Shown: one piece after another, positions 35,925-52,975 of the stretch
Numbering within the stretch: position 1 is the stretch's first letter
How the letters are laid out: each line of letters opens with the position of its first letter
Assembly (NCBI GenBank): GCA_025558095.1
Contig: JAIVFI010000022.1
Span: 372,001-436,000 of the forward strand
DNA: 64,000 nucleotides
From: Hyaloraphidium curvatum
Taxonomy: Eukaryota; Monoblepharomycota; Hyaloraphidiomycetes; Hyaloraphidiales; Hyaloraphidiaceae
Direction of reading: 5' to 3'
Position numbers and translations under genes: made by a program
Notes under the pieces: generated by a model
Seen by the model: only the letters and a program-made list of their open reading frames with translations
Told to the model about the DNA's origin: nothing
The model's database searches: none

Positions 35925-38884
35925 TTATCCCCGTGCATGCTCCCCCTGCGGCAAGAACATGGTGGTATCCAGGACTCCCAGATCTGTTCGTGATGGAATG
36001 AAGCGCTCTTTCGGCTGAGCTTTTGTCATGATGTCCGCAAGTTGTTTTCCGGATTCAATGTCCTGAACCACGATTGTTCCAAGTTCCTGTTGTTGTCGAG
36101 TTAAATGGTACCGAATTGCAATGTGTTTGGTGCGCTCATGGTGAACAGGATTGTAAACCAAGTCCTGTGCCGAAGCATTGTCTTCGTGGATGATGGTGGG
36201 GCCTGGCATTGGAAACCCCAGTTCCGCAAAAAGGGTGCGCAAGTACATCACATCCCTTGTGGCTAATGCCAGGGCAATGTACTCTGCTTCGGTAGTGGAT
36301 TGAGCCACAAGGCTTTGGAGTTTTGACTTGAAGGAAAGCGGGGCTCCACATGCCATGACGACAACGCCTGTGGTGGATCTGGCAGTGTCCAGATCACCTG
36401 CAAAATCCGCATCTGCAAAAGCTTCCAGCACCAATGGTTTGTTGCCATCAAACACGAGTCCAAATGCCCGGGTTTGACTCAAGTAGCGCAGGATTCTCTT
36501 TAGAGCCGCAATGTGCTCCTTTCCATAGTTCTGCAGGTACCTGCTGAGGTAGATGACAGCATATATATGCCATGTCAGGCCTAGTGCAAAGAGCTAGGAA
36601 AAGCAAGGAGCCAATGCATCCAGAGTAGTTGAACGATGCCATGACGTGCGTCCGGATCTGCAATGTCTGGCTTCCTAAATCTCTCGGAAGGGAGCAATGG
36701 TGATGGAGCATCCTTCAAAGAAATGGGAGTGGCAAACTTCTGGTTCTTGTTGAGATCGCCGGCAGCAAATTGCACTGCTTGCGTGGTGTTGGTAATGTAC
36801 TTCTCCAGGATCCTCTCTGCAAAGACTGTTTGCCTCAAGATGATTCTTTTGTTGGGTCTGTCACGGATGACTTCCACACCGCCGTAGAGCTGCACTTCAC
36901 CGAGAAAGCGTGATTCATATCGGTTCTCAATCAATGCAATGCACTCTCTGACGAATTCTGGTGGATGTCCCGTGCCACACACATCGTCCATGGTCACAAG
37001 AAGGATTGCAATCTCTCCTGAGTCGCCCTTGATGCGTGTGTACATGTTGGGGTCCGTTTCGCAGTTGTGAAAGCCGTCCTCTTTCATGTTGCGCTTTAGC
37101 TCACGCTGATACAGGTTGGCTGCCTGTTTGAGGCCATAGACCCCCCGCTTGAGTTTGAGAACGGGGTCCTTGAGAGACAAGTCCCTCCTTTGGTAAGTCT
37201 CGTGCATCTCAACGTAGAGGTCCTCCTCTTCTGCATTGGAATTCAAGAACGCGTTCTTGATGTCAAAATGGTAAAGGGGCCAGTCCATGTGTGCAGCTAT
37301 GGCACACTGTGATCTGAAGGCTGCATGGGTATGGCTGCAAAAGTCTCCCCGTAGGTCCCAGGAGCCTGGCGGTTGCCATCAACCACGTGACGTGCCTTGA
37401 ACCGTTTGGTGAGGTCTGGGTTGAGTTTGAGGTCGAACACGTAGTGGGATTTGAGAATTCGGTCCTCCTTGCCACGGGGCCTTTCAACCTCTTCCCAGAC
37501 TTCTTTGTCATTGAAAGCTCCATCTTCCACTTGAATTGCCTCATTCCATTTTTCCCATTCTGGCAAAAGCTTTGCCTCCGCAATTGATCTTGGGATTCGA
37601 ACCCCATCAATCACGTGCATTGGCATTCCAAAACCTCCTTGGCTCCCAAAGTCCATGTGCACTGGTCCATGGATTCCTGCCATAATTGCAGCTTGCAGGT
37701 GTGGGGCTTTCCACCATTCCCGGGGAGGCTGCTGTGCCCGAGAGGAATGACGCACAGGGCGATGAAAATCGTGCTGTCCATTCTGCTCTTGCTGTTCTTG
37801 TTGCTCATGCTGTGGAAGATTTTGCAGGTCTTGCTGCTGATGAAGATCTAGTGGCTCTTGTTCCTCCTCCCCCTGAGGCACTAGATCATCCGTTTGGATG
37901 AGATCAAGTAGATCCAACGTTGAAAGAGGTGGCGTTGCCGTGCTGTCGACAGCTTCCTTGCCTGGTTTTGAGGAAGTGGGTGCAAGGAAAGGGATAGTGC
38001 GTGCGCTATAGCGCTCATTTGGCACTATGGTTCGGACCGCCATGACTTTTCCTGAATCAATCAAACGAACCATGTGCCCTTTTGTGTTTGGAGCTCTCCC
38101 CAAGTAGATTGCTCGCGCACCACGTGGTGCCAAGGTAGTGAGTTCTCTGTCTCGCACTTGGGCCCAGCATTCCATCCCGAATGTATAGAAGTCTTCGACT
38201 GTTGGAATTTCTCCATTCCACAAAGTCAGAGGAACGGCGTTCCTTTTCCATGATTTGGTGGTTGGCACGCAGTTGAGGACGTGCCCTGCATGGGTGGCGG
38301 CAAAAGACCGCCATTCCTCAGAGGGTCGCTGTTCCCCTAACAGCATTGCACGGATCATTTTCTCAATCTTTTGAACTCCCCGTTCAGCAACCGAATTCAT
38401 TTGGGGATGTCCTGGGATGATGAGTCTGAACTGAGCCCCAATCTTATGGAGGTGTTCCTGGAGTTCCTTCATGTTGGCTTCATTGTCCGCATGGAGGTTG
38501 CCAAGAACGTATCCATATTGATTCCTGGCGTGTTCGCTGAATCTGATGATTGTCGATGACATTTCAGAGCGAAGGGCCAAGTTGAAAGTGGCAAGAAACG
38601 GAGTGTCCTCGTCGAAAATGATGAGAAGATGACGCTTGCCATCTAGGGATCTAGGGAAATTCACGGCCATATCCGTATGTGCAACGTGTAATCGCCTTTT
38701 TGCCGTGCGAATCGGGTGAGGCGGGTATGGTTCTGAAACCATTTTTGCCCGTATGCATGAGTCGCAGTTCTCATGATCTCCTATGGCTCCCAGTTTAAAT
38801 TTGTCAAGACCTTGGATGAGGTTGTGTAGTTTCATGCGTCGGAGCGTGTCAAGTGACACATGGCCGAAGCGGGCATGGATGAGG
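35925..38884 (-). pseudogene. copia-2 pol, distal part (integrase, RT, RNase H), frameshifted
   Basis: Three minus-strand frames follow one another: 38859-37297 (GHVSLDTLRRM end of GAG-pre-integrase, CIRAKM, integrase core, start of RT), 37288-36581 (FDIKNAFLNSNAEEEDLYVEM, GVYGLKQA, TMDD in place of YVDD) and 36482-35925 (ADADFAGDLDTARSTTG, HERTKHIAIRYH: RNase H). Frame breaks at about 37290 and 36500-36580 mean no continuous product. The left side of the break at 38884 joins the segment at 44465 across the nested element. Confidence 0.88.
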
Positions 38885-39108
38885 TGTTGGAGTGGCTATG
38901 GGGCGTGGGGAAGACGTAGCCCCAGTGGTCTGAACCGGGTCAGAACTCAGATGGACGGGATGGGGAGAGGGACAGTTTCACGTTGACCCGTTGTCCATTC
39001 CCTTGCGATGACAAGTCCCTAGATGACCCCTCCGGTCGTACCCAAGTATCCCCACACGCCAATAGACTCCCTATTGATACAGAATCGTAGCAACGATCCA
39101 TTCCAACA
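38885..39108 (-). repeat. copia-1 3' LTR
   Basis: 224 bp, begins TGTTGGAGTGG and ends CCATTCCAACA on the plus strand; identical by eye to 44236-44459. The inverted termini and 5-bp target duplication are canonical for Ty1/copia. Confidence 0.95.
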
Positions 39109-39119
39109 CTCCCCCTCGT
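39109..39119 (-). other. copia-1 polypurine tract
   Basis: On the minus strand this reads as a purine run directly before the 3' LTR (plus strand CTCCCCCTCG). It primes plus-strand DNA synthesis. The same kind of tract occurs in copia-2 at 35759-35769. Confidence 0.85.
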
Positions 39120-39156
39120 TGTAAGATTCCCAAGAAGTGTCCAGAAATCCCCAAAG

Positions 39157-42100
39157 TTAGTCACGAATCTCTACAATTCCCATAAGTGCCCTGAAACGTT
39201 GAAACTTCTCCCTTGGTAGCTGTTTGGTGAGCAGATCCGCAAGCTGGTCCTCTGTGTTGATGTACTCCAGCTGTATCTCTCCACTATCAATTTTCTCCCT
39301 CACAAAATGGTACTGCACTCCAATGTGCTTGGTACGTTCGTGAAAGACAGGATTCTGCGCCAGCTTGATAGCCCCCTCATTGTCCTCCTTGATGACTGTT
39401 GGCCCTTGCTGAGGAAATCCCAATTCCTCCAATAAACTCCTTAGCCACGCAACTTGACGTCCAGCATAAGATAGAGCCATGTACTCGGCCTCTGTTGTAG
39501 AAAGAGCCACCACTGGTTGCAGTTGTGACTTGTAGATGATAAGGCCATTCCCCATCATCACAATAACCCCAGTAGTTGACCTCCCAGTGTCAAGGTCCCC
39601 AGCAAAACTAGCATCTGCATATCCGTGCAATGCTTTGGTCATGTCCAGATTCGGATCCCTCTTGTAGACCAAGCCAAAGTCAGCTGTTCCCTTCAAGTAT
39701 CTGGTTGTCTTCTTGACTTGCTCCACTGCTTCACGAGTAGGTGCCATCCCATGACGGCTCTCCGTGATAATAGGTAAGGCAATGTCCGGCCTGGTGAAGT
39801 TCATGGCATACATCCAGCTTCCCACCATTGATCTGAACGGAAAACGTCCGATTTCCTGCTCCTCAGCAGCAGACAACTCCGTCTTCCGTTTCCTGAGCTT
39901 CACCCCAACGTCCATAGGTACAGAAACTGCATTGCAAGTGTCCATTCCGAAGTCCTCCAAGGCTTTCTTGATGTAGTTGGACTGCTTGATTGTGATTGTT
40001 CCAGCCTTCTCGTCCTGCTTGATTTCCAAAGCCAGGAACTTTTTCATGCGACCCATGTAACGTATCTTAATCTGCTTTCCCAGCTCCTCAAGAAATGCAA
40101 TCGTCCGTTTTTCGTCCGTTGAGCTACATCCAAAGTCGTCCACATGAATAATCATCAAAAGAAACCAATCATCTTGCCGCAGAAAGTAGATGCAGTACTC
40201 CTTTGAGCAACGTATAAGCCCCATCTCCGTGAGTATCTCGTGCAGGTGTCTGTGCCAAGCACGTGCAGCTTGCACAAGTCCATAAACCGCGACTCCAGGT
40301 CGAATTACAGTAGGTCTTCCATCAGTAAACTCAGGTAAATCCATCCCTTGAGCTGGATACAAGTAAACTTCCTCGTTCTCCTGGAGCTTAGCCTGTAGAA
40401 ATGCAGCATTTGCATCAGCCTGATGTACGATCATGTTGTTCTGAGCAGATATCCAAAAGAAAAGCCGTACAGCAGCAGCAGAAGGTACAGGTGCAAAGGA
40501 TTGACCAAAAGAAGATGGATCCTGCCAATCACCCCTTGCCACCCATCGAGCCTTGTAGTTTTCCTCCCCCACAATGCTGCCATCAGCTCCAGGTTTGAGG
40601 TCAAATACAAATTGGCTTCCAACCGCGAATTTTTCCTTGCCCTCAGGCAATCCCATGATGTTGTACGCATCTCTGCTCTTGAAGTTGCCAATCTCACGTT
40701 CCATTGCCTTGGCCCACATCTCACGATCCTCTGAACGCATTGCCTCTGCATAGTTCCGTGGTACACGTGCTCCAGTGCTTGCAGCAAAGATTCCATCCAT
40801 GTGTGCCATGTCCTCCCAAGTTGGTAGGTGTCCCTGCCAGTCCAGGTGGTCCTGGACCTCCTCCATCAGGAAATTGATCGATTCCAGCGTGATCACGTTG
40901 ATCTCCTTCTCGTTGCTCGTGTTGGGGGCTTTCCACCACTCCCCAGGAGGTCTTGGAGCTCTGCTGGATGACCTTGTAGGTAAAGGTATCTTAGAACCCG
41001 TTCCAGCCGCCCCAGCGCCTCCCTGAGCTCCGCTGCTTGATGAAGATGCTCCTCCAGGCTCCCCACGTTGGTCTGTGGCTTCCCTAGCCGCACGATCACC
41101 AGAAAGTTGCGATCCACCAACTGCCTTTCCTCCCCCTGGATCGCCACTTCCACTGTTCCCAGAGCCTCTTCCACGAGCCACCAGCTCGTCCTCACTTTCG
41201 CTCTGAGCTCGTTGATCGCGTGACAGACGTAAATCCGTTCCCTGGCTGCCAGAACTTGAAGATTGATGTTGAGTACCTCCAACTTCCAGTCTTTGACCTC
41301 CTCCCCCGGCCTCCTGGCGCTCAGGTTGACGCTGCACACGGTCTCCCTGTGTCCCACGATGCTCCTGGTTGCCGTCGTCGATAGGATCTGCGGAACGGAC
41401 CCGCCGTGGCGTCTCCGGTGACGCCTCCAATTCCTCAGGCTGCGCCGACTCCTCCACTGCAAGTCGACGGTTCAATACAGCGCTCGGGTCCGCGTCCTCA
41501 GGTAGTTTTTCGACCGAAACTCCGCTTTCCAGAACCCGCATGTAGCTCTTGAGCGTCTTGTTTGACCAGCGTTCCTCGAAAACGACATCACGTGAGTCAA
41601 AAATCCGCCCGGTCTCAAGATTCTGGACCGTAAATGCCTTCGATCGCGAGCTCATTCCCAGGTAGCGGCATTGTACCGCCTTAGCATCCCATTTGCCGCG
41701 CTTATCCTTGTCGACGATCGCGTAACACGTTTCTCCGAAACGTCGGATGTGGCTAATGTTCGCCCGTCTCCCAGTCAGCAGTTGAAACGGCGTAGACCCT
41801 TTCTGCCACGTCTTTGTGTTCGGCAAACGATTCCGTGTGTTGATGTGATGATGCAGTGCGTATCCCCATAACGACTTCGGCGCTTTCGAGTCGATCAGGA
41901 TGGTCCGGATCCCTTCCTCGGCGGTCCGGTTCCGCCGCTCAATTACCCCATTCTGCGCAGGCCGATTCGCCACCGACGATTCCAACTTGATTCCCTCGTT
42001 CTTGCAGTACGCTTCGAGCCGTTTTGACGAGAATTCACCTCCGGGATCGACCCGCATGCATCCGACCTTTAGGCTGAACTGGTTCTTCACCCACTCGGCA

Positions 42101-44061
42101 AAGTGCATCATCCAGTCCTCCGCCTCCGATTTGTGCTTCAATAGGAACGCAAACTCCGCAGAAGTGTACTCGTCGACTGCATGCAATGCCCAGCGTTCTC
42201 CATGCACCGTTGCAACGTCCGATTGTATCAGGTCCCAGTGAGTCAGCTCAAACGGCCGCGAGACTTTCCGCTCCGACTCCGGATAGGGCAACTGATGCAT
42301 CTTCCCCATCACGCACTCCTTACAGAAGTTGTTGAGGTTTCCAGCAAACACGTACTCCTCCAATCCATCCACAATCCCAGCCTGTTGAACCTTCCTGAGT
42401 GCCGCGATCGGGTAGTGCCCGCAGCGCCCATGCGCAATCTCCGCGCTCAAATCCCCTTCCTGAGCACTCAGCATGATCTGTTCGTCATGCTCGTTGAGGA
42501 TTTCCGCGTTGAGATAGTAAACGTGACGATCTATGCGGCAAGTGCCCCGCACGTCGCCGCCCTTGGTGATGGCCCCTCCATCCGGACCCAGAAGCGTGTA
42601 GTATCCCATCTGCCCTAGTCTCCCAATCGAAATGAGCGTTGCAGGAAGATCTTTGATGAAAAGCACATCTTCCAGGGTGACGATGTCGCCAGAATTGGTG
42701 AGCTTGATCTTGAGCTTTCCGACTTCGATCGCACGCGCGATCCCTTTTCCCATTCGAACATCAACTGCATCGCACGGCTTGATGCCGTAGAGCAGTTCCC
42801 TGATTCCCGTCGCGTGCACGGACGCGCCGCTATCCCCCATCAGCCTGCCGCGCATCTCCTGGCCCGTCTTCGCCGCGTGCACGACGTGTTCCGGGGGTTT
42901 TTCGTATCCACCGTCCCCCGTCGTCTCCCCATCGTTTCCCTCGATTCCGCCCTCCATCATGAACAGGAACGCGCCGAATCGATCTTCCAGATCGGGGAGA
43001 TCGCCCAGGGTGAGCGTGTTCTGCTGCTCTCGTGCCGTTTTCCCATCGTCCTTCCTCCAGCACACGGCCTCGAGATGACCGTCCTTTCCGCACTTGTTGC
43101 AGGTTTTGTCACGATGGGTGCAGTCCTTCTTGACGTGTCCACCCTTCCCGCAGCAGAGGCACGTGATTCCCGAGCCGTTTTCGCCCTCCGCCGTGGCCTG
43201 CCGACCCCCGCGATTTCCGAATCCTCGCCCGCGACCCCTTGAACCCCCGCGGTCACCTCCATGGCCACCCCGTGATCCTCCGCGACCCCTGCCACGGTTT
43301 AGAGCGTACATCAACGTGTTTGGAGCGGGATTCACGGTTATGTTGGCTGCCCCAGGTGAGTACGTATCACCATTTTGCTCAGCTCGCTTGATCATAGTCT
43401 CCTCTTCCATCTCCATCCTCTTCTGAAGGTATGCAACGTTCAAGATAGGGTGTTTCTTCACTCCATTTTCAGTCTTCCACTCGTGTTTGGTCTGTGCTCC
43501 CAGCCAAATGCCGTCAATCTCGGCCCGGACTTGATCGAACTCAGGTAGGTCCTTCAGGACTTTCCTCCAGATGCTCATATCATCGTCATCTCCCTTCAGC
43601 TTTCCCAGTGCTTCAACTTCCATCTTTTTCTGCATGAAGCGGGTAAAATTCGGAGCCACCCGGTCGGTAATGATGAACTCAAAGCTGTAGTACTGGACCT
43701 CGGCGTTCCCTTGCTGCGCCACATTTTCCGTCACGAAACGCTTCTCTAGGTAGTCCCAGATGTCCTTAGCAGTGTCCATCCTGCTGCAGATCCTTTTGAG
43801 ACCAATAGAGAGTGATCCTACCAGGATCCCTTGAGCTTTCTGGTCCTTCGTGTTCCAGGCTGACAAATCATCTTCCGTCTTTCCTCCCTGCCCTACCACG
43901 GGCTTTGCCACCTTTCCAGTCACAATTTGCCAGTCACTCTCCCTCTGGAGCTTGGCCTTGATGTCAATTAACCAATCCTGGTAATTGGTTTGTGATCCGG
44001 TTTCCTCGAGCTTGGCCCCCCCAAACAATGCCACACGGGTTCCTCCGACCGAAATCTCCAT
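39157..44061 (-). CDS. copia-1 Gag-Pol polyprotein
   Basis: Single 1634-residue frame from ATG 44061. Order: capsid-like gag (UBN2 type), RGG-rich spacer, two zinc knuckles (CLCCGKGGHVKKDC and CNKCGKDGHLEAVC), aspartic protease (MGDSGAS), GAG-pre-integrase zinc site (HGRCGH...CKECVMGK), integrase with D-D-E residues (VDEYTS, RVDPGGEFSS, NGVIERRNRT), a low-complexity linker, then RT (NAAFLQAKL, GLVQAARAW, IHVDDFG) and RNase H (GYADASFAGDLDTGRSTTG, HERTKHI). The protease-integrase-RT order is that of Ty1/copia. No internal stop or frameshift. All enzyme motifs look usable. Confidence 0.96.
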   Translation of the reverse strand: MEISVGGTRVALFGGAKLEETGSQTNYQDWLIDIKAKLQRESDWQIVTGKVAKPVVGQGGKTEDDLSAWNTKDQKAQGILVGSLSIGLKRICSRMDTAKDIWDYLEKRFVTENVAQQGNAEVQYYSFEFIITDRVAPNFTRFMQKKMEVEALGKLKGDDDDMSIWRKVLKDLPEFDQVRAEIDGIWLGAQTKHEWKTENGVKKHPILNVAYLQKRMEMEEETMIKRAEQNGDTYSPGAANITVNPAPNTLMYALNRGRGRGGSRGGHGGDRGGSRGRGRGFGNRGGRQATAEGENGSGITCLCCGKGGHVKKDCTHRDKTCNKCGKDGHLEAVCWRKDDGKTAREQQNTLTLGDLPDLEDRFGAFLFMMEGGIEGNDGETTGDGGYEKPPEHVVHAAKTGQEMRGRLMGDSGASVHATGIRELLYGIKPCDAVDVRMGKGIARAIEVGKLKIKLTNSGDIVTLEDVLFIKDLPATLISIGRLGQMGYYTLLGPDGGAITKGGDVRGTCRIDRHVYYLNAEILNEHDEQIMLSAQEGDLSAEIAHGRCGHYPIAALRKVQQAGIVDGLEEYVFAGNLNNFCKECVMGKMHQLPYPESERKVSRPFELTHWDLIQSDVATVHGERWALHAVDEYTSAEFAFLLKHKSEAEDWMMHFAEWVKNQFSLKVGCMRVDPGGEFSSKRLEAYCKNEGIKLESSVANRPAQNGVIERRNRTAEEGIRTILIDSKAPKSLWGYALHHHINTRNRLPNTKTWQKGSTPFQLLTGRRANISHIRRFGETCYAIVDKDKRGKWDAKAVQCRYLGMSSRSKAFTVQNLETGRIFDSRDVVFEERWSNKTLKSYMRVLESGVSVEKLPEDADPSAVLNRRLAVEESAQPEELEASPETPRRVRSADPIDDGNQEHRGTQGDRVQRQPERQEAGGGGQRLEVGGTQHQSSSSGSQGTDLRLSRDQRAQSESEDELVARGRGSGNSGSGDPGGGKAVGGSQLSGDRAAREATDQRGEPGGASSSSSGAQGGAGAAGTGSKIPLPTRSSSRAPRPPGEWWKAPNTSNEKEINVITLESINFLMEEVQDHLDWQGHLPTWEDMAHMDGIFAASTGARVPRNYAEAMRSEDREMWAKAMEREIGNFKSRDAYNIMGLPEGKEKFAVGSQFVFDLKPGADGSIVGEENYKARWVARGDWQDPSSFGQSFAPVPSAAAVRLFFWISAQNNMIVHQADANAAFLQAKLQENEEVYLYPAQGMDLPEFTDGRPTVIRPGVAVYGLVQAARAWHRHLHEILTEMGLIRCSKEYCIYFLRQDDWFLLMIIHVDDFGCSSTDEKRTIAFLEELGKQIKIRYMGRMKKFLALEIKQDEKAGTITIKQSNYIKKALEDFGMDTCNAVSVPMDVGVKLRKRKTELSAAEEQEIGRFPFRSMVGSWMYAMNFTRPDIALPIITESRHGMAPTREAVEQVKKTTRYLKGTADFGLVYKRDPNLDMTKALHGYADASFAGDLDTGRSTTGVIVMMGNGLIIYKSQLQPVVALSTTEAEYMALSYAGRQVAWLRSLLEELGFPQQGPTVIKEDNEGAIKLAQNPVFHERTKHIGVQYHFVREKIDSGEIQLEYINTEDQLADLLTKQLPREKFQRFRALMGIVEIRD

Positions 44062-44219
44062 CCCGGCCGCCGCAGCACCTCTAGTGCTTCACGCGCTCTT
44101 TCTAGCGCCCACTGAGTCCACCCAGGCGGTCCTGGAGACCAGACTCAGCTGGATGCGGTCCCCTCGGCTGGTTGCGCCACACGCAACTTCAAAGCCGCGC
44201 AAAAGTGTTCTGGACACCC

Positions 44220-44235
44220 TTTGGGCTCATAGACC
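44220..44235 (-). other. copia-1 primer-binding site (half-tRNA type)
   Basis: Directly inside the 5' LTR the plus strand reads GGGCTCATAGACC, close to the anticodon arm GGGCTCATAACCC of a Met tRNA (CAU anticodon). Elements such as Drosophila copia are primed by an internally cleaved initiator tRNA, which pairs through this region and not the 3' CCA end. Confidence 0.7.
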
Positions 44236-44459
44236 TGTTGGAGTGGCTATGGGGCGTGGGGAAGACGTAGCCCCAGTGGTCTGAACCGGGTCAGAACTCA
44301 GATGGACGGGATGGGGAGAGGGACAGTTTCACGTTGACCCGTTGTCCATTCCCTTGCGATGACAAGTCCCTAGATGACCCCTCCGGTCGTACCCAAGTAT
44401 CCCCACACGCCAATAGACTCCCTATTGATACAGAATCGTAGCAACGATCCATTCCAACA
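44236..44459 (-). repeat. copia-1 5' LTR
   Basis: 224-bp direct copy of 38885-39108, no difference seen. Because the element is on the minus strand, this is the promoter-bearing LTR. Confidence 0.95.
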
Positions 44460-45084: not shown

Positions 45085-45480
45085 CAAAGAACAGAGCCAG
45101 CAAGCTAGTGGACCATCCTCTCCTGATCCTCTTCCTCCTCAGACACCATGCCCAGATCCATCCCTTTTGCACCATTGGCCTCCATGAAAGCAGTGATGTC
45201 GTTGATGAACAAGATGAAGAACAGTGATGAGAGTGGGTCCCCTTGCTTCACTGCAGTTAGGAACTTGATGAAGTCCGACTTGGTGCCGTCCTCATCCCGG
45301 AGCCTTCCCCACACCCGCCCGAACGCCATCTCAAACATGTCAACAACCTGTTTGGGTACTCCCATCTCCTCCAGCTTCTGCCATAACCTGGGGCGCTCCA
45401 CCGTGTCAAAAGCCTTTTATTTTGCCTCCCTGCCATGCATGTGGTCATTGCTCTCACCGGGTTCTAGCACGGGTTGACGT
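45085..45480 (-). mobile_element. LINE-type retrotransposon, RT fragment (5' side of the split copy)
   Basis: Minus-strand RT segment: FDTVERPRLWQKLEEMGVP, then VKQGDPLSSLFFILFIND (non-LTR RT domain 4), ending ...LLALFFAD where copia-2 inserted. Upstream of KAFDTV, at about 45430-45490, lies a stretch similar to a region that is downstream of the RT in the 51.7-kb copy (CAGCTCACGTCAAC and CATGCATGGCAGGGAG), so this copy is rearranged or a join of two fragments. Confidence 0.75.
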
Positions 45481-45578: not shown

Positions 45579-45665
45579 TATACAGTATAAATGGGTAAAG
45601 GTCACCATAAGGTCACCTCGAGAATCACCTGGGTCCGCCCGCCAAACCGCGGGGGCCGAAGTGAC
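45579..45665. repeat. Left terminal site of the recombinase unit
   Basis: Contains TATACAGTATA (45579-45589) followed 11 nt later by GTCACC, another GGTCACC at 45611-45617 and GTGAC at 45661-45665. A closely similar arrangement (TATACGGTATA, then GAAAGTCACC) occurs in the same orientation at 51595-51621, 6016 bp away. Proposed element end or recombinase/DNA-binding-domain site. Confidence 0.5.
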
Positions 45666-45838
45666 ATTCCAAAGCTCCGAAACAAACCGTTGCCGTTCCC
45701 TCCCCAGGCCCGAACGGCCAGTGCCGCTTGGCACTGACGCTTAGAGAGGACCATAGATCCCCTCCCGGCCCTCGGTCGGGCACGGACTGTTCTGAGCGGC
45801 GAGCTTTTGGGACTCGGAGCCGGACACTTGACAGGACG

Positions 45839-48800
45839 ATGTCGGACAGCCGCACACCGGCTTCCGGGCCCGGATCCCGCCCCGCGGCGAAGGCGCGGGC
45901 TCCGAAGAGTGCGCCCCAGGGAACGCCGGGGGCTGGAGAGGGACGGAGGAGGCCGCGGGCATCGCGGGGTGGTGCGCGGACGCCCACATCGCAGGACGGC
46001 AACACCGGCTCGGGGACGTTGGAGCTGCCCGCGCCGACCCTGCCCGCGCGACGGAAGACCAAGACGAAGGCAGAGACCGGCACTCGGGCCAAGGCGGCGG
46101 TAAGTTTGTGCCGGAAGCCCGTCACGGGAACTCGACGCTGACCTGTTCTTGGCCCTCGGCCACGTGCAGGTCGTCTCCCCTACGGCGCCGTCTGGAAGTG
46201 CTTCGGAAGCTCCAAATCCGAAACGAAGGAAGACGGCAGACGGGGCAGCTCTGCCTGTTGCCGGACAGCCCTCCCCGCTTCGGCCTTCGACGGCAGCACC
46301 TTCCACCTCCCTCAACGACCCCAACGCGCCCGCTACCTCAGCCGGAGACCCTCCTGGGGACGAATCCGAGATTATTCTCCCCCCTGCCGGCCTGCAACTT
46401 GTTCTAGGCGGGCTTCGCTTGCAGATTCAGAACGCCGTACCTATCCCGTCGGAACTCTCGCGCCGGGCCCTCGAACAGCTCGATAGGCTGCGGCAGGACC
46501 AAACGACGACCACGAGCTCTCTTTACCGGCCGCAGATGACTGAGTACCTGCAGTTTTGCAAGACGGAGAAGCTCCCGGCATGGCCTATTCGGGGGGACAC
46601 AGTGGCCCTCTTCGTGGAGTACCTGTCACGGAGGCCGAAGAAGACGAGCGGCAAGAAGCGATCGAGGGACGAGATGGAGGAGACCGAGGAGGAGCGGGAA
46701 CGCCGGGAACAGCAGGCCAACGAGGAGCAGGAGCTCGGTCTTGGCAATCAGCACGGCGGACAACCGCTTTCCGAACAGCCGTTCGCGACCAAGACCGAGA
46801 CCCCGGGCGTGAGCACCGTGATTTTGGCCATCACTGCGCTCGAGTGGTTCCGCCTGCGGACGCAGGACTACTTTCCGCAGACCACTTACCCCGAGGCGCA
46901 CGTCAAGCTCCGGGATTGCTACGCTGTGAAGGAGCTGGAGAAGCTGCTTAAGGTGCTCGAAGTGGACAAGAAGAACTCCATCGACAGAATCAAAGCGCCG
47001 GGCGTTTTATCTGATACCTACTCGGACTCTGAGTTTCTGGCCGTCGCACAGTACCATCTGACAAGGGGCCGGATCTACCGCAACAAGAGGGTGCGCATGA
47101 CACCATTTCAGGAGATCCTGAACCTGCGTGCACGCACACTCCACCTCATCAACGGACTTGTCGGGTTCCGCTCCAGCAACGGGCGGGCGATCGAATTCTC
47201 GGACCTCTTTGTGAAAGTCGTCCAGCTCGGTCACGGAGAAGACCCGGTGACAGCCAAGGTAATGTACGGCTTGCCTCGCCGCACGAGAAAGCTGACGTTC
47301 CTTCCCCGCTTCCGGCACAGGCGTACTGCATCCTCGCGGACAACGGCAAAACGAATCGGCACGGCGGGGTCGACATTTTCGGCATGCTCCGCAACTACGA
47401 CGTGCGCCTGTGCGCCGTCGCCAGCCTCGCCATGCAAATGTACGCGCTAGATCGACTGCAAGACTTCCAGTGGCCAGATTGCGCCCCGGTCTTCGATTCC
47501 CTCACGACCAAGGTCGGTCGCCGCCCGTGGGTGAGGCTCAAGGTCTTTCCCCGAGCCAGCAACCCCTACGAGGAAATGTCCTACAACAGTGAACCGTGCT
47601 TTGCTCGGTCGAGGTGAAGATTTGGCGCCTGATGAATCCTTCGACGCAGCGCACTACCAGCAGGTCAAGAACGCGCACGACGACTTGGCCATCGGCATCA
47701 CCAAGGCCACGCACGCATGCAGGCAATACTCGGCCACAACATCCGTAGCGCGCGGCGCCAACAAAGCGGATGTCAAGGACCAGCATGGCTGGGACAAGAG
47801 CATGCTCAACCTCTACGACACCGGCTCGCTCCCCCTCACGCACCTTGTCGCTGTCGCCGGCGGGAACCCTCACAATTTGGCGTCCTATTTTCTTCCTCGC
47901 GCCGAGCTCGGTGGGTACCTTCGGCCAGCGCATGGAGCTGCTGGATGCTGACTGTCCTCTGATGCAGTGCCCCCGGCATCTCTTGTGGCCGAGACCTTCC
48001 AATTCGCAACGCGGGAGCTCGCGAACTACGCGAGCCGACTGCAGCAGGACCAGAGCAAGTTCCTCGACCCAACGTGCAAGGGCTTCCACGAGCTTGCGCG
48101 GGACTTGGCCACGGCGAGCATGCCCATCTCGAGACGCACACTTGCGCATGTACTTACTTCGGTCCCCCGCCAGGTCTTCTTCCAAGACGCGCCAAGCATG
48201 ATCGATCTCTTGTCTGGAGGGCGTTTCGGCAATGCCGAGGTGCCGAGGGAGCTCTGGTACGCGGGACTCCCGCTGATCTACCAGACGGAGCACTTCAAGT
48301 CGGAGGTCTACATCCACTATCACAACCAGGCGCTTGCGCAGCTCGAGGCCATCAAGGTCTCCCGCGCCAACACGCTCGCGCCCAAAGACTACGTCGACGC
48401 CATGGTCCCGCGGTTCCAGCAGCTGCAGTCGCAGCACGCGCAGCTGGAGAACCACGTCGTCACCGAGATCTCGGGCGTAAAGGAGCTCGTCAACGAGCGG
48501 TTCGACGAGATCAAGGAGCTCTTCCTCTCGCAGCGTGGTGAGCTGCCGTCGTCGGCCCGCCCGGTGAACGCCCGCTCGGTGAACCCGTCGGCGATCGTGG
48601 AGAACCCGACCCCCTCGGCGCCAGAGCGGAGGGCGAAGCCGCGGCTGCGTCATCGTCTGCGGCTGCGGCTGCAGCCGCCGCTGAAGCAGCCGCCGCGCAG
48701 AGGCGCCGCGAAGCCGAGGATCGCGCACGGAGGGAGAAGGAGGAGGCGGAGAAGCGAGTGGCGAAGGCCGAGCTCCTGCAGGAGCACGGTGCTCGCCTCG

Positions 48801-49201
48801 GGGCCCTGGAGCTCGTCTAGTACGAGCAGGGTCGGCGCTGGGTGCCCGCGTACCCCTTCCCTTGGGTCGTTAACCCGCGGGACATCTGGGACGAGTACAC
48901 GATCGGGGCCAAGCCGGATCCCGGGCGCCCTCGCCTGATCTCCATCCGGGAGCTCAACACCATCTTTGGCGGATCATGGACCCGCAACATTCCGACACTG
49001 AAGCAGCAGAAGAAGCGGAGGAAGCTGGTGTGCGACGAGGTGCAGCGCCTCCAGAAGGTGAACCATTGGTCCGAGGAACAGGCTCTCCAAAGCCTGTGCA
49101 ATTGCTTCCATCGCAATGGGAAGTGGACGGCAATTACCAACGTGTACAAAATCTTGACCGAGGAGCGCAAGGCACGCGGAGAAGCTGAAGCAGCGGAGTA
49201 G
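45839..49201 (+). CDS. Crypton-like tyrosine recombinase with GCR1_C domain (possible premature stop)
   Basis: Exons 45839-46099, 46170-47258, 47321-47588, 47650-47910, and from 47968. Pro/Ala-rich N-terminus, SAM-like core-binding domain (LYRPQMTEYLQFCKTEKL), then catalytic domain: Arg box in VGFRSSNGRAIEFSDL, the Crypton block ADNGKTNRHGGVDIFG, HACR (HxxR), and GWDKSMLNLYDTGSLP with the candidate nucleophile Tyr. It continues through SYFLPRAELVPP, a coiled coil, and a GCR1_C-type DNA-binding domain (VNPRDIWDEYTIG, near 48863-49201). A frame change near 48545-48625 needs a fifth intron, and an in-frame TAG at 48818-48820 separates the coiled coil from GCR1_C. This may be a decayed copy, or GCR1_C may be translated separately. 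Confidence 0.82.
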
Positions 49202-49613
49202 GGGAGCTGGCATGGTGCGGCGGACGGCTTCGGGCGGGATTCTTGGCCACGGCCTCTTGACAATCTTAAAGATCGTTGATGTATTCTTCGTTTTGCAATC
49301 TTCGTTGGTCCCTCAATGTCGAAGCTTGGTCTGGGGAAGCCGAAAACGTCCTTTTCGTAGTCGTTTTGTCGCGCCTTAGCGATCAACCCTTTGGTTGCTC
49401 GGGTGACAGTTACACAAACTCGGCCAATTCTCTCACTCGCGACCTCGTGACGGCCAGCTAGAGGCCTTAACGCGGCTCTCCTGAGCCGTCGCCATCGCCT
49501 CGTGGGGCACTGGGACCGTGGGACTCTCCGCGGGGCAGCTGCCGGCGGAAAAGTCACGTCGGGACCACTCCGCTCCGAGCACGAATCACTTGCCATTGGA
49601 GGGGCTGCCGGTC
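49202..49613. other. Gap between the two recombinase genes
   Basis: About 410 bp, GC-moderate, no recognisable protein segment. It should hold the 3' end of the tyrosine recombinase transcript and the promoter and leader of the serine recombinase. The frame of the latter is open upstream to about 49518 but without an ATG. Confidence 0.55.
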
Positions 49614-50692
49614 ATGGCCGCCCGGGAAAAGCCGGCGCTGAAGGCAGTTGAAGAGGCGCTGGAGTCCTTGGTGGCCCTCGCAAATCCTCGGCCGAGGGAT
49701 GGGCGCTGGATTGCATACGTGCGCAAGTCGAAGGACGACAATGCGAACAACATCTCGCTGCAGGACCAGGAGGGACTGGTGCGGCGCTGGGCGGCGGACA
49801 ACAAGAGGGAGATAGTCGCTGTCTGTAGCGACGTCCTCAGCGGCACCTACCCGCGTGGTGACGGGAGGAAGCAGCGGCCCGGACTTGAGGAAGCATTCGG
49901 GAGGCTCTCTCGCGACGCAACGATCGTGGGCCTGGCCGTTGCCCGCGTGGATAGGCTCGGCAGGAACGCTGCTTTCATCCTGGCGGACGTGGAGGAGCTG
50001 AATCGCATGGGCAAGAACTTTGCCAGCGTCGAGTTTCAAGGACTTGTGCACGGGCCCTTGAATCCAACTTCCAACATGGCGTACATGTTTCTCGTACTAG
50101 GGGCCCTAACGGCGCACACTGAGCGCTCCTCTGTGAGTGCTCCGCGGGGCGACAGCAGCGTCAGCGCAGTCTCTGACCTCGCAGGCACCCACCTCTGCCT
50201 CGCAAGATTGCTGCGCGCACCGCCGACTCGGCGAAGCAGAGATCAACGCGCAACATCGGTCAGTCCAGGTTCTCACCCTTCGGGACCCGCTTCCGAGCTC
50301 GGTTCCCTGGAGGAGAGGTTCGCGAGGCGGTGGAGTCGGGTGAGCTCGCTGGCCGGGAGTACCACGGAACGAAGCGCGCACCGCTCGAGCTTGTGATCCA
50401 CGAGCCCGAGGCCGAGCAAGCTGCGATTCTTGCGCCTTACCTGACCAAGCTTGACGGGGAGCAAGACCCTCAGGAAGTGCGTCATGGGTCGTCGCCGGCA
50501 TTCTTGCTCGGTGTCCTACGGGAGCGAGGAAAGGACGTGGATCATCGCGCCAAAGGGGTTCAGCGAGGGTACCTGGATGCCTCCTCGCTTGCTCGCAATG
50601 TTGCAAAGGCCGTCAAGTACCTGACTGAGCGGGAGGGGAAGGAGAGGTTCGCGGAGCGCGTGCTGGCGGCGTGGAAGGGGCCGGGCATGTAG
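49614..50692 (+). CDS. Serine recombinase (resolvase/invertase family) with an intron
   Basis: Exons 49614-50132 and 50207-50692 (intron 50133-50206, gtgagt...caag, phase 0) give 334 residues. Catalytic domain: YVRKSKDD (nucleophile Ser in the YxRxS motif), NISLQDQEG, SDVLSGT, RPGLEEAFGRL, VARVDRLGRN (arginines of the active site), NPTSNMAYMFLVLGALTAHTERS (helix E region). After the intron: AARTADSAKQ, then RFSPFGTRF, the linker seen in many resolvases, followed by a moderate C-terminal helical domain without a zinc ribbon. Serine recombinases are rare in nuclear genomes. The ATG at 49614 is the first in frame. Confidence 0.88.
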
Positions 50693-51567
50693 GAAGCGTC
50701 CAACGGAACGCAATTCGTTCTATTCTCCATCTTCAAATACCCATATCCCGGCCCTGTAACCCCGGCAGCCGCGTTCTGGCAGATGCAAAGAAGCTGATAC
50801 GCGCCCGTGCGGGTTCCCCCGTACGCAACAGGGTTGCGGCCTGTAGGACCTCTGGCAAACAAGAGGGCAATGCTTCTTTTGATTGCCGAACTTTCTCAAC
50901 GGTCCAATCTTGGCTTGTCGGAGGTAACGGCCAGGGGTGAGGGAGCAACGCGTCCGAAACAACGAAAGTGCCCCAGCTGTCGCCAGGAACCTCGGAGCCG
51001 CGATCCTTCTAGCCAACGGCATTGGCCAGCACCATGAAGGTCTGCTACCCCTGATTCCCTGGCCAGTCCTCCCCCAGCGGAGAGCGTGGGGGCCGACATC
51101 CAGCGCCGCGGCGGGGACCGGCAGCGAACCCCGTACAGCGGCCTCCAAGGGCGGATCCAGCCGCGCAATCCTAGAGAATATGTTCCTCGAGAGATGCTTG
51201 CGGCGCCGCCTGCCTCCAAATAGGCATGCGAAGCCGAGGAAGTGCCTCGGACTCGCCGCCACCGCGAAGGTCCACGGCCCGGCTCCACAAACAGCTCCAG
51301 GAAACAATGGGCCCGGCATCCCCGTAGAAAACAGCGTAGCCAAAGTTGCCGCCGAGCCAGCCGAGCTCGGCGAGGGGCATTCCACGAGGAACACCGCAGG
51401 GCCCCTCGAGGCCCGGGGTGCCGCTCACACACAAGGTCCCCGGCCGAGCGCGTCCGCCGCGCCCACCGGCACGTGCGGCGGTACTTGTTGCGACGCTGCG
51501 CGGGCCGGCGCGCGGCCGGGCGGAGAGTGGGACGCGCACGGGGTCGCCGACCTTGTCGGCCTATGAG
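50693..51567. other. Unassigned right part of the recombinase unit
   Basis: About 875 bp downstream of the serine recombinase. Open frames exist on both strands (for example plus 50937-51566, starting with GTG, and minus 51394-50720), but none shows a recognised domain and the codon patterns do not favour one. It could be a cargo gene in several exons, or non-coding. Confidence 0.4.
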
Positions 51568-51579
51568 GTGAACTGCCGC

Positions 51580-51655
51580 GTGACTTTTCGGAGCTATACG
51601 GTATAGCTCCAGAAAGTCACCTCTGCCAGCCGGCAGTATAGTTTTGAAAAGTCAC
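51580..51655. repeat. 20-bp-arm palindrome plus a third half-site (right terminal site)
   Basis: 51580-51599 and 51601-51620 are reverse complements at 18 of 20 positions around a single central base (51600), both arms running from GTGACTTT to the TATAC core. A third half-site of the same form (GTATAGTTTT...GTCAC) is at 51636-51655. The TATACGGTATA core resembles the left site at 45579. Further GTGAC motifs follow to about 51715. The order fits an element end or a recombinase accessory site. Confidence 0.6.
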
Positions 51656-51711
51656 CCGTATTTTTGATAGCCGGGTTAGGCGCGCGCGCGGGGTGACCTG
51701 GGTGATCTAAC

Positions 51712-52975
51712 GTGACATTTAAAACACACATATGTATGGGCAACAGGGTCGGCAGCTTCAAGCTTCTGGGGTACCAGCTCACGTCAACTGGGCGGAGCAA
51801 GGACCATGTGCATGGCAGGGAGTATAAGATGAACGCTGCTTATGGGCTCTGGCTCCGCGACATCAGGGAGCAGCCTGGGATGAGTCCTGACCTCCAGCTC
51901 AAGCTCTACAGCACAAAGGTCAAGGCAGTGGGCCAATATGGGAACCCGTTCATTGTTGAGATGCCGAAGGAGGAGTACCTTGCCGGGGAAAGCACCAGGG
52001 ACAAAGTGACATGCATGGCTCTTCGTGCCGTCACTCATCTGCCCAAGTCTACCTCCCTGGCCTGTCTGTATGCGATCACTGGCCAGTACCCCCTTGCAGT
52101 TCATGACCACGAGTCGGCACTCAAGTTCCTCATGCGCATCAAAACAGCGGATCCTGCACTGTGCCTACTTTACAAAGAGCTCAAGATCGAGGCACTGAAG
52201 GGGTCCTGGAACTGGGCTGCCTTCCTGAGGGAACTACTTGTATACTATGGCGGCGAAGATGGGAGGGAGCTGTGGGAGAAGGACACTTTCTCATGGCCCA
52301 AGGAGACTGTGGAGACTCTTGTGAAGGGCAAGTTCAGGGAGATCAATGCCCAGAGGCTCAAGGACAACGACAAACTGCACTTTTGGAGGATGTGTGACAT
52401 GATCTTGATCCGGGTGGAGAAGCACCGGAGGGATGTCCAAAAGTTGCTGTGCTCTACCCACGACCTGGAGGTGGAGACAGGCAGGCACCAAGGACTTGAG
52501 GTGCAGCAGAGAACGTGCAAGCATGACCCTGAGCACATTGGAGACGAACAACACTTTCTGTTTCACTGTTCAGCAAATGCGGAGCGGCGCCAGAAGCTGC
52601 AGACTAGATTGGAAGCACTAGGCCGCGAGTGGAACATGGAGACCTGGCTCTGGGCTCTTAGCATCAAGGAGTTCGAGCCCACGATCAAAGCAAGGCGGCA
52701 GAAGGAGAAGGCCCTCAACTCCATTGCCAGCTTCATCTCAAAGTCCATGAAGGACAGGAAAACTGGGAAAATGAAAAAGACACAAGACGACGATGAACTT
52801 TGCAATTAGCAGCAAACTCATGGTGTAACAGCGGCCAAGCCAGGGGCAGGTCCGGGTCACCAATACTATTCTTGAGGTCCGGGTCACCAATACTACTATT
52901 CTTGTAACAGCGGCCAAGCCAGGGGCAGGTCCGTCCGGGTCACCAATACTATTCTACTATTCAACAGCTTGACAG
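51712..52975 (+). mobile_element. LINE-type retrotransposon 3' half, plus-strand copy
   Basis: One frame (stop at 52807-52809) encodes the part downstream of the RT palm: LGYQLTSTGRSKDHVHGREY, EEYLAGESTRDKVTCMALRA, KIEALKGSWNWAAFLRELL, a C-terminal zinc-binding-like block (CKHDPEHIGDEQHFLFHC) and a Lys-rich end. The upstream RT and endonuclease are absent (5' truncated). The 3' UTR holds repeated blocks of the CCGGGTCACCAATACTATTC type and ends in TACTATTC-like repeats, not poly(A). It is close relative of the split minus-strand copy. The insertion abuts the 3' end of the importin gene. Confidence 0.85.

Follow-up and report, generated by a model that had tools for sequence, protein, structure and literature searches.

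The 64,000-nucleotide window analyzed here (C22:372001-436000; C- and L-numbers denote assembly contigs and extracted loci, and w-numbers window positions) belongs to the 31.9-Mb, 55-contig assembly of Hyaloraphidium curvatum, a chytrid-like fungus of the phylum Monoblepharomycota. It contains a Crypton, 6149 bp long including 3 bp (ACA) at each edge (45582-51730, + strand), in which a tyrosine recombinase (YR) gene is followed by a serine recombinase gene on the same strand. The two genes occur together at two loci, and both have evolved under purifying selection. A single Crypton very probably encodes both recombinases, and on balance we favor a reading of the sequence in which a CryptonF-type transposon encodes a YR plus an accessory serine recombinase that may act as a resolvase. 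Published systems were compared through PMC3212892, PMC3627910, PMC2715888, and PMC13236599.

The YR gene (45839-49201, + strand) was delineated by its open reading frames (ORFs), catalytic residues, and colinear match to a second Crypton family of the same genome (family 2; the window element and its relatives constitute family 1). GT-AG borders and reading frames, assessed by eye, suggest + strand exons at 45839-46099, 46170-47258, 47321-47588, 47650-47910, and from 47968 onward, separated by introns at 46100-46169, 47259-47320, 47589-47649, and 47911-47967. The HACR and NLYDTGS motifs of the window YR align with HAGR and RERY of family 2, an arginine stands in the expected place in both families (GFRSS/ADRSS), and the YR ORF pieces are colinear with family 2 at 28-40% identity. 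The last part of the gene encodes a GCR1_C domain (48821-49201, + strand; PF12550, E 8.2e-10, 39.3 bits against a cut-off of 23). The serine recombinase gene (49614-50692, + strand) encodes 334 amino acids in two exons, 49614-50132 and 50207-50692, both of which are open in the spliced translation; the GT-AG intron between them (50133-50206, + strand) has an identical splice in P0005, a deposited partial H. curvatum protein that is 100% identical over 71% of the serine recombinase. Pfam matches, motifs, and splice sites thus bear out the sequence-only reading of two intron-split recombinase genes on one strand, with a GCR1_C domain present.

The Resolvase domain (PF00239), detected in the ORF at 49485-50396 (E 2.9e-14), spans residues 76-216 of this 303-amino-acid ORF, or approximately residues 33-173 of the 334-amino-acid protein, the remainder being C-terminal. 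A 171-amino-acid C-terminal ORF of the serine gene has no Pfam match at E values up to 10, including to PF07508 (Recombinase), the domain that, with a zinc ribbon, follows the catalytic domain in large serine integrases. Residues Y35-R37-S39, R88, and D113-R114-L115-R117 are invariant in a seven-row alignment (YxRxS, Arg, DRL-R), and DNA-invertase structures match the protein at E 2e-6. When the serine protein was searched against databases, the 8000 candidates that had the most words in common with it were scored; two further relatives are P0009 and P0010, and no viral contigs were found for P0009.

The sequence-only reading had delimited the unit at 45579-51621 by two TATAC-n-GTATA sites, 6016 bp apart and said to be in direct orientation. 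The left site does mark the left end, but we place the right edge at 51730, as four copies (the window, two at C9, and one at C14) share the right end ...TTTAAAACACACA(T) and then diverge; the letters before divergence, also written ...ACATTTAAAACACACA(T), are followed by four different flanks. The right-edge core ACA occupies 51728-51730, with host sequence beginning at 51731. The left edge is common, among the matches listed, to the window and C10:494932 alone, the latter holding 38 bp of the left end at 97% identity, and reads ATACAGTATAAATGGGTAAAGGTCACCATAAGGTC in both. Excision would join the family-1 right terminus, ...AAAACACACA, to the left terminus, GTATAAATGGG. The left-end site, TATACAGTATA (45579-45589, + strand), includes the left core ACA (45582-45584) and the half-site GTATA from 45585, so that the left TATAC site spans the left terminus of the element. 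The repeat itself is real, given that the 64 kb contain two matches to TATACNGTATA at up to one mismatch (45579 and 51595) against 0.03 expected; that the two sites bound the unit is not supported. As terminal direct repeats the sites were rejected, since the right one is the center of a 41-bp subterminal palindrome 131 bp inside the right end (51580-51620, located by dyad analysis and half-site positions; TATACgGTATA center, 18 of 20 arm bases paired), and the orientation claim is without meaning because both sites are palindromic. A third half-site copy, together with AAAAGTCACC, was found by repeat analysis at 51636-51656. GTATA, counted on both strands of the 6152-bp stretch, occurs five times, and every occurrence belongs to the left-end site or, in the right subterminal region, to the 41-bp palindrome or the third copy at 51636. 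Of the 17 GTCAC repeats, 8 lie within 160 bp of an end.

The repeat shared at the two edges of the window element is ACA alone (3 bp). Rejoining the window flanks at ACA gives ...ACTATATACATATGTATGG, in which we recognize by eye a 12-bp palindrome, ATACATATGTAT, that resembles the family-2 site at L038, ACATATGT. No empty site was found for the window element, the DNA search yielding no second copy of its left flank. The retroelement scraps that flank the element at 45426-45453 and 51795-51822 are inverted copies of each other over 28 bp; in the left one an RVT_1 match falls just below the cut-off, and we read it as a LINE.

A second locus, C2:638221-641904, contains YR pieces and then the serine gene in the order and strand of the window, with the serine part 93% identical (dS about 0.2) and with surroundings unlike those of the window. 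The other copy with the same two-gene order for which the sequence-only reading called therefore exists, and its proposal of a composite mobile element with both enzymes gains further support from the right end shared among different flanks and from the position of the serine gene inside the Crypton ends. That the serine gene is a neighboring host gene is ruled out by other copies that carry the gene together with the element's right end. An assembly or chimera artefact might be suspected from the retroelement scraps, which lie in opposite orientations to the left and right of the element; we consider it extremely improbable, given that the C2 locus repeats the gene order in other surroundings, and the pairing is accordingly not an accident of assembly. 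Because the copies at the two loci have diverged so far, the pairing is at least as old as dS ~0.2.

Copy counts from DNA searches of the assembly are lower bounds, and we describe at least the following further family-1 copies. At C9:336628-341290 (L026), two serine blocks starting at w49429 and w49396 lie head to head without a YR. The C14 copy matches 50491-51731, the copy at C2:548609 matches 50694-51621 and then 51648-51677, the C13 copy matches 51043-51504, and the C21 copy matches 51489-51626 and has the same downstream flank as the C2:638-kb copy. The YR part is found alone at C2:518052 (46017-47208), the GCR1_C stretch occurs as two in tandem at C2:564006, and C8 holds two short right-end pieces. 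The nine Resolvase matches of the genome comprise five of family 1 (the window, two at C9, and two pieces of one C2 gene) and four of a different element, S2, described below, and the 10 GCR1_C matches comprise the window, C2:639 kb, and eight of family 2; the two domains occur together at two of three family-1 serine loci and at none of eight family-2 places.

The C9 blocks could be taken to indicate a separate serine mobile unit nested in or adjacent to the Crypton, its pairing with the YR being secondary, and IS607-type serine recombinases are indeed reported from another fungus (PMC2715888). We regard such a unit as unlikely, since the C9 blocks stop at the Crypton right end, whose architecture is common to the serine-free family 2, and since the left starts vary among copies (49396, 49429, 50491, 50694, 51043, and 51489), as expected of fragments. 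The refuting pattern named from the sequence, each recombinase alone with different boundaries, is seen in part at C9, where the serine gene is alone but keeps the Crypton right end; given that this end is kept and the left is truncated, we take the C9 serine-only copies to be left-truncated Crypton fragments.

Six pairwise comparisons among four copies (324-334 codons; divergence up to dS 0.215) give the serine gene a dN/dS of 0.15-0.23, a result tempered by the non-independence of the pairs and by the C9 halves, which look gene-converted in exon 1. The YR gene has dN/dS of 0.22-0.40 in four segment comparisons, one of them against a copy with three stops, and in each comparison, whether of the whole gene or of a segment, the third codon position is most often changed. 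These ratios indicate that the serine gene has evolved under purifying selection and that, for much of the time since dS ~0.2, it probably encoded a functional protein. A passenger gene, captured once and of no benefit to the element, would fit its presence in one host species and in few copies. We think this improbable considering the low dN/dS among copies that have diverged this far, the retention of the catalytic signature residues, and the maintenance in S2, another repeated element, of a cousin whose intron is in the same position. At L026, the inverted pair differs by 0.2% in exon 1 and by 4-5% downstream, and exon 1 divergence so far below that downstream suggests gene conversion.

The assignment of the ends to the YR draws on family 2, which is approximately 5.4 kb long, is represented by seven loci (L032-L038), and encodes a YR with GCR1_C; no Resolvase match was found in L032-L038, and L036 contains NDC10_II (29 bits against a cut-off of 26.3). 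Its right end reads GGTGCACACACAC(A) and its left end CAGAGCATAATAATC, but GAACATAATAATC in L038; array junctions read ...CACACACAGAGCATAA. By eye, the flanks of L038 rejoin to TTTACATATGTTT and those of L036 and the L032/L033 array to GACAATATACACGA, and ACAC is shared at the edges of L036. Like family 1, family 2 has an AC-repeat core, GGTCA-type subterminal repeats (GGTCAG, 7 of 10), a palindrome, whose center here lies 105 bp inside the right end, and a half-site at its left end. Its counterpart of TATAC-n-GTATA is TTATGCGCATAA, a candidate YR site, and in each of L032, L033, L034, and L036 all three occurrences of GCATAA lie at the left end (one) or in the palindrome (two). For the half-site positions, a rough post hoc estimate gives 1.5e-5 and 7e-4. 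Because the serine-free family has similar ends, the right end, which lies beyond the serine gene, would belong to the YR system, and because the letters of the half-site differ between families while its two places are constant and family 2 is serine-free, we assign the half-site to the YR. The reverse arrangement, with the serine recombinase as the principal enzyme of mobility (integrase/excisionase) and the YR in the accessory role, might be argued from the window, where the serine gene is open and the YR broken, and from the excess of places with right-part sequence over places with YR sequence; we hold it to be very unlikely given that the element is similar in its ends and target cores to family 2, which has a YR but no serine gene and nonetheless builds arrays and numerous near-identical copies. 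The arrays of L032-L035 (C21:156539-172817 and C49) are composed of head-to-tail, near-identical 5.42-kb Cryptons with AC-rich junctions, with three units in C21.

We posit that the YR, with its GCR1_C DNA-binding domain, would excise and insert the element by crossover at the AC-rich core ACA, and that it may recognize a putative half-site carried by both the left end and the subterminal palindrome on the right. The serine recombinase is predicted to act after replication or insertion on tandem or multimeric copies, resolving them through cleavage with a 2-bp stagger at a dyad inside the element. We infer the crossover position, the binding of the YR to the half-site, and this division of labor from the patterns described above. 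That the serine enzyme resolves multimers is plausible, although we stop short of calling it probable; serine-free family 2 makes head-to-tail arrays, and no whole-unit arrays were seen in family 1.

Several observations weigh against the proposal of a YR Crypton with an accessory resolvase. The absence of family-1 arrays is weak evidence, as family 1 has one full copy. A search of family 1 for a serine-type crossover dyad gave no strong candidate: the interval between the genes (49202-49613) has just a dyad with 8-bp arms and a 4-bp loop at 49380-49401, the downstream interval 50690-51579 has none with nine paired bases when a single mismatch is allowed, and the sole dyad with a 2-bp center lies within the first 260 bp (45717-45738, 10-bp arms, two mismatches). 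The window is the one full-length copy among the matches listed, the C9 copies are serine-only, and of the eight places in which serine or right-part sequence persists, six have no YR match (with the C13 surroundings unread), a bias toward left truncation that is unexplained by the circle-based Crypton model. The copies at C2:638 kb, C21, and C2:548 kb end at 51621-51626 rather than at 51730. The first two stops are probably one event, given the common downstream flank, and the C2:548-kb copy, broken off near 51621, picks up again at 51648-51677; for these reasons the early stops read as deletions, with a shorter end variant as the alternative. The window YR gene has the span given in the sequence-only reading, but its frame is broken by an in-frame stop at 48818, 5' of GCR1_C, and by a frame change near 48.6 kb; its NDC10_II score of 11.8 bits is below the cut-off of 26.3. 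The C2 YR copy is open from ~48470 to the end of GCR1_C and has a one-base shift of its own, and a 1.1-kb upstream deletion has removed its catalytic residues. With the one YR broken and the other partly deleted, no copy among those listed has both genes intact. Finally, the end motifs were chosen after inspection of the sequence, and L038, the fifth full family-2 copy checked, has ACATAA at its left end instead of GCATAA.

In its domains, catalytic residues, and mobility (four identical right ends with four flanks, and a left end at two places among the matches listed), the element reads as CryptonF-type when set beside the published description (PMC3212892), in which CryptonF elements, known from fungi and oomycetes, have a YR with catalytic R-H-R-Y and a C-terminal GCR1_C, and some carry a second gene. 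It differs from them in its serine recombinase, in a subterminal palindrome that has the left-end half-site, and in its repeat, which is 6 bp in CryptonF as opposed to ACA here (ACAC at one family-2 copy). The lack of a terminal direct repeat of ~6 bp at the window edges is a further point against our assignment, and it lowers the case for CryptonF membership without excluding it, as the source writes of "most of the fungal Cryptons" (PMC3212892). Known Crypton cargo includes a Ulp1 protease as second gene, one CryptonF is fused with a Mariner transposon, and four kinds of enzymes are listed as integrating eukaryotic transposons, serine recombinases not included (Kojima and Jurka 2011, PMC3212892). 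Consistent with the sequence-only reading, we identified no Crypton with a serine recombinase or resolvase in what we covered of the openly licensed PMC literature.

IS607-like serine recombinases were later reported in Fanzor2 elements of eukaryotes and viruses (PMC3627910), and IS607-type enzymes are present in a yeast, Saccharomyces kluyveri, with an average dN/dS of 0.19 (PMC2715888). The window protein is like these in having a serine catalytic domain in a eukaryote and evolving under purifying selection (PMC2715888, PMC3627910), and differs in that they have an N-terminal DNA-binding domain, whereas its own catalytic domain lies close to the N-terminus and is followed by a 160-residue C-terminal part. 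IS607 membership is ruled out by this domain order and by the NCBIfam IS607 model, which scores 14.7 bits for P0005 and 18 bits for the S2 protein against a cut-off of 110. In bacterial Tn3-type transposons, a transposase and a serine resolvase are found in one element. Our element resembles them in pairing a serine recombinase with an enzyme of transposition, and differs in that the transposition enzyme is a tyrosine recombinase and that no res site was found in family 1.

The S2 loci (L028-L031, on C4, C34, C46, and C9) carry a cousin of the serine gene with an intron in the same position and 35-38% identity to the window gene. They are colinear over ~6.7 kb at 97-100%, with C4 lacking 278 bp, and have a sharp common edge that is also seen at C39; the C34 and C46 loci look like one duplication. 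A DDE-looking ORF lies upstream of the S2 serine gene. Its motifs VDRCC, LDHFH, and GSNRLEG look DDE-like. A search of 2216 candidates gave this ORF no homologue at E 0.001, and Pfam gave it no match at E values up to 10, so that the putative DDE label comes from these motifs. Also upstream is a 36-bp palindrome, with arms of 15 bp around a central AG, the right arm of which occurs three times in L031; serine crossover sites have this form. Upstream of the serine genes, the window element and S2 have no words of 10 or more bases in common, and the cousin P0008 has a low-confidence helical model (mean pLDDT 56). We speculate, tentatively, that serine recombinases of one fungal lineage were recruited as resolvases by two unrelated Hyaloraphidium transposons, the Crypton and S2.

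To the left of the Crypton lies a young Copia long terminal repeat (LTR) element (38885-44459) with two identical 224-bp LTRs, TGAGG at both edges, and a 1643-amino-acid minus-strand ORF that contains RVT_2 and copia-type gag domains; it is adjoined by an older Copia remnant (36581-38895).

The ends described here make the Crypton mechanism testable at defined sites, and the serine gene brings in a further family of eukaryotic serine recombinases, with a domain order unlike that of IS607. If the Crypton keeps its serine gene under selection, this would show that eukaryotic elements, like bacterial ones, can assign transposition and resolution to unrelated enzymes, and recruitment by both the Crypton and S2, if true, would mean a Tn3-like division of labor among eukaryotic DNA transposons.

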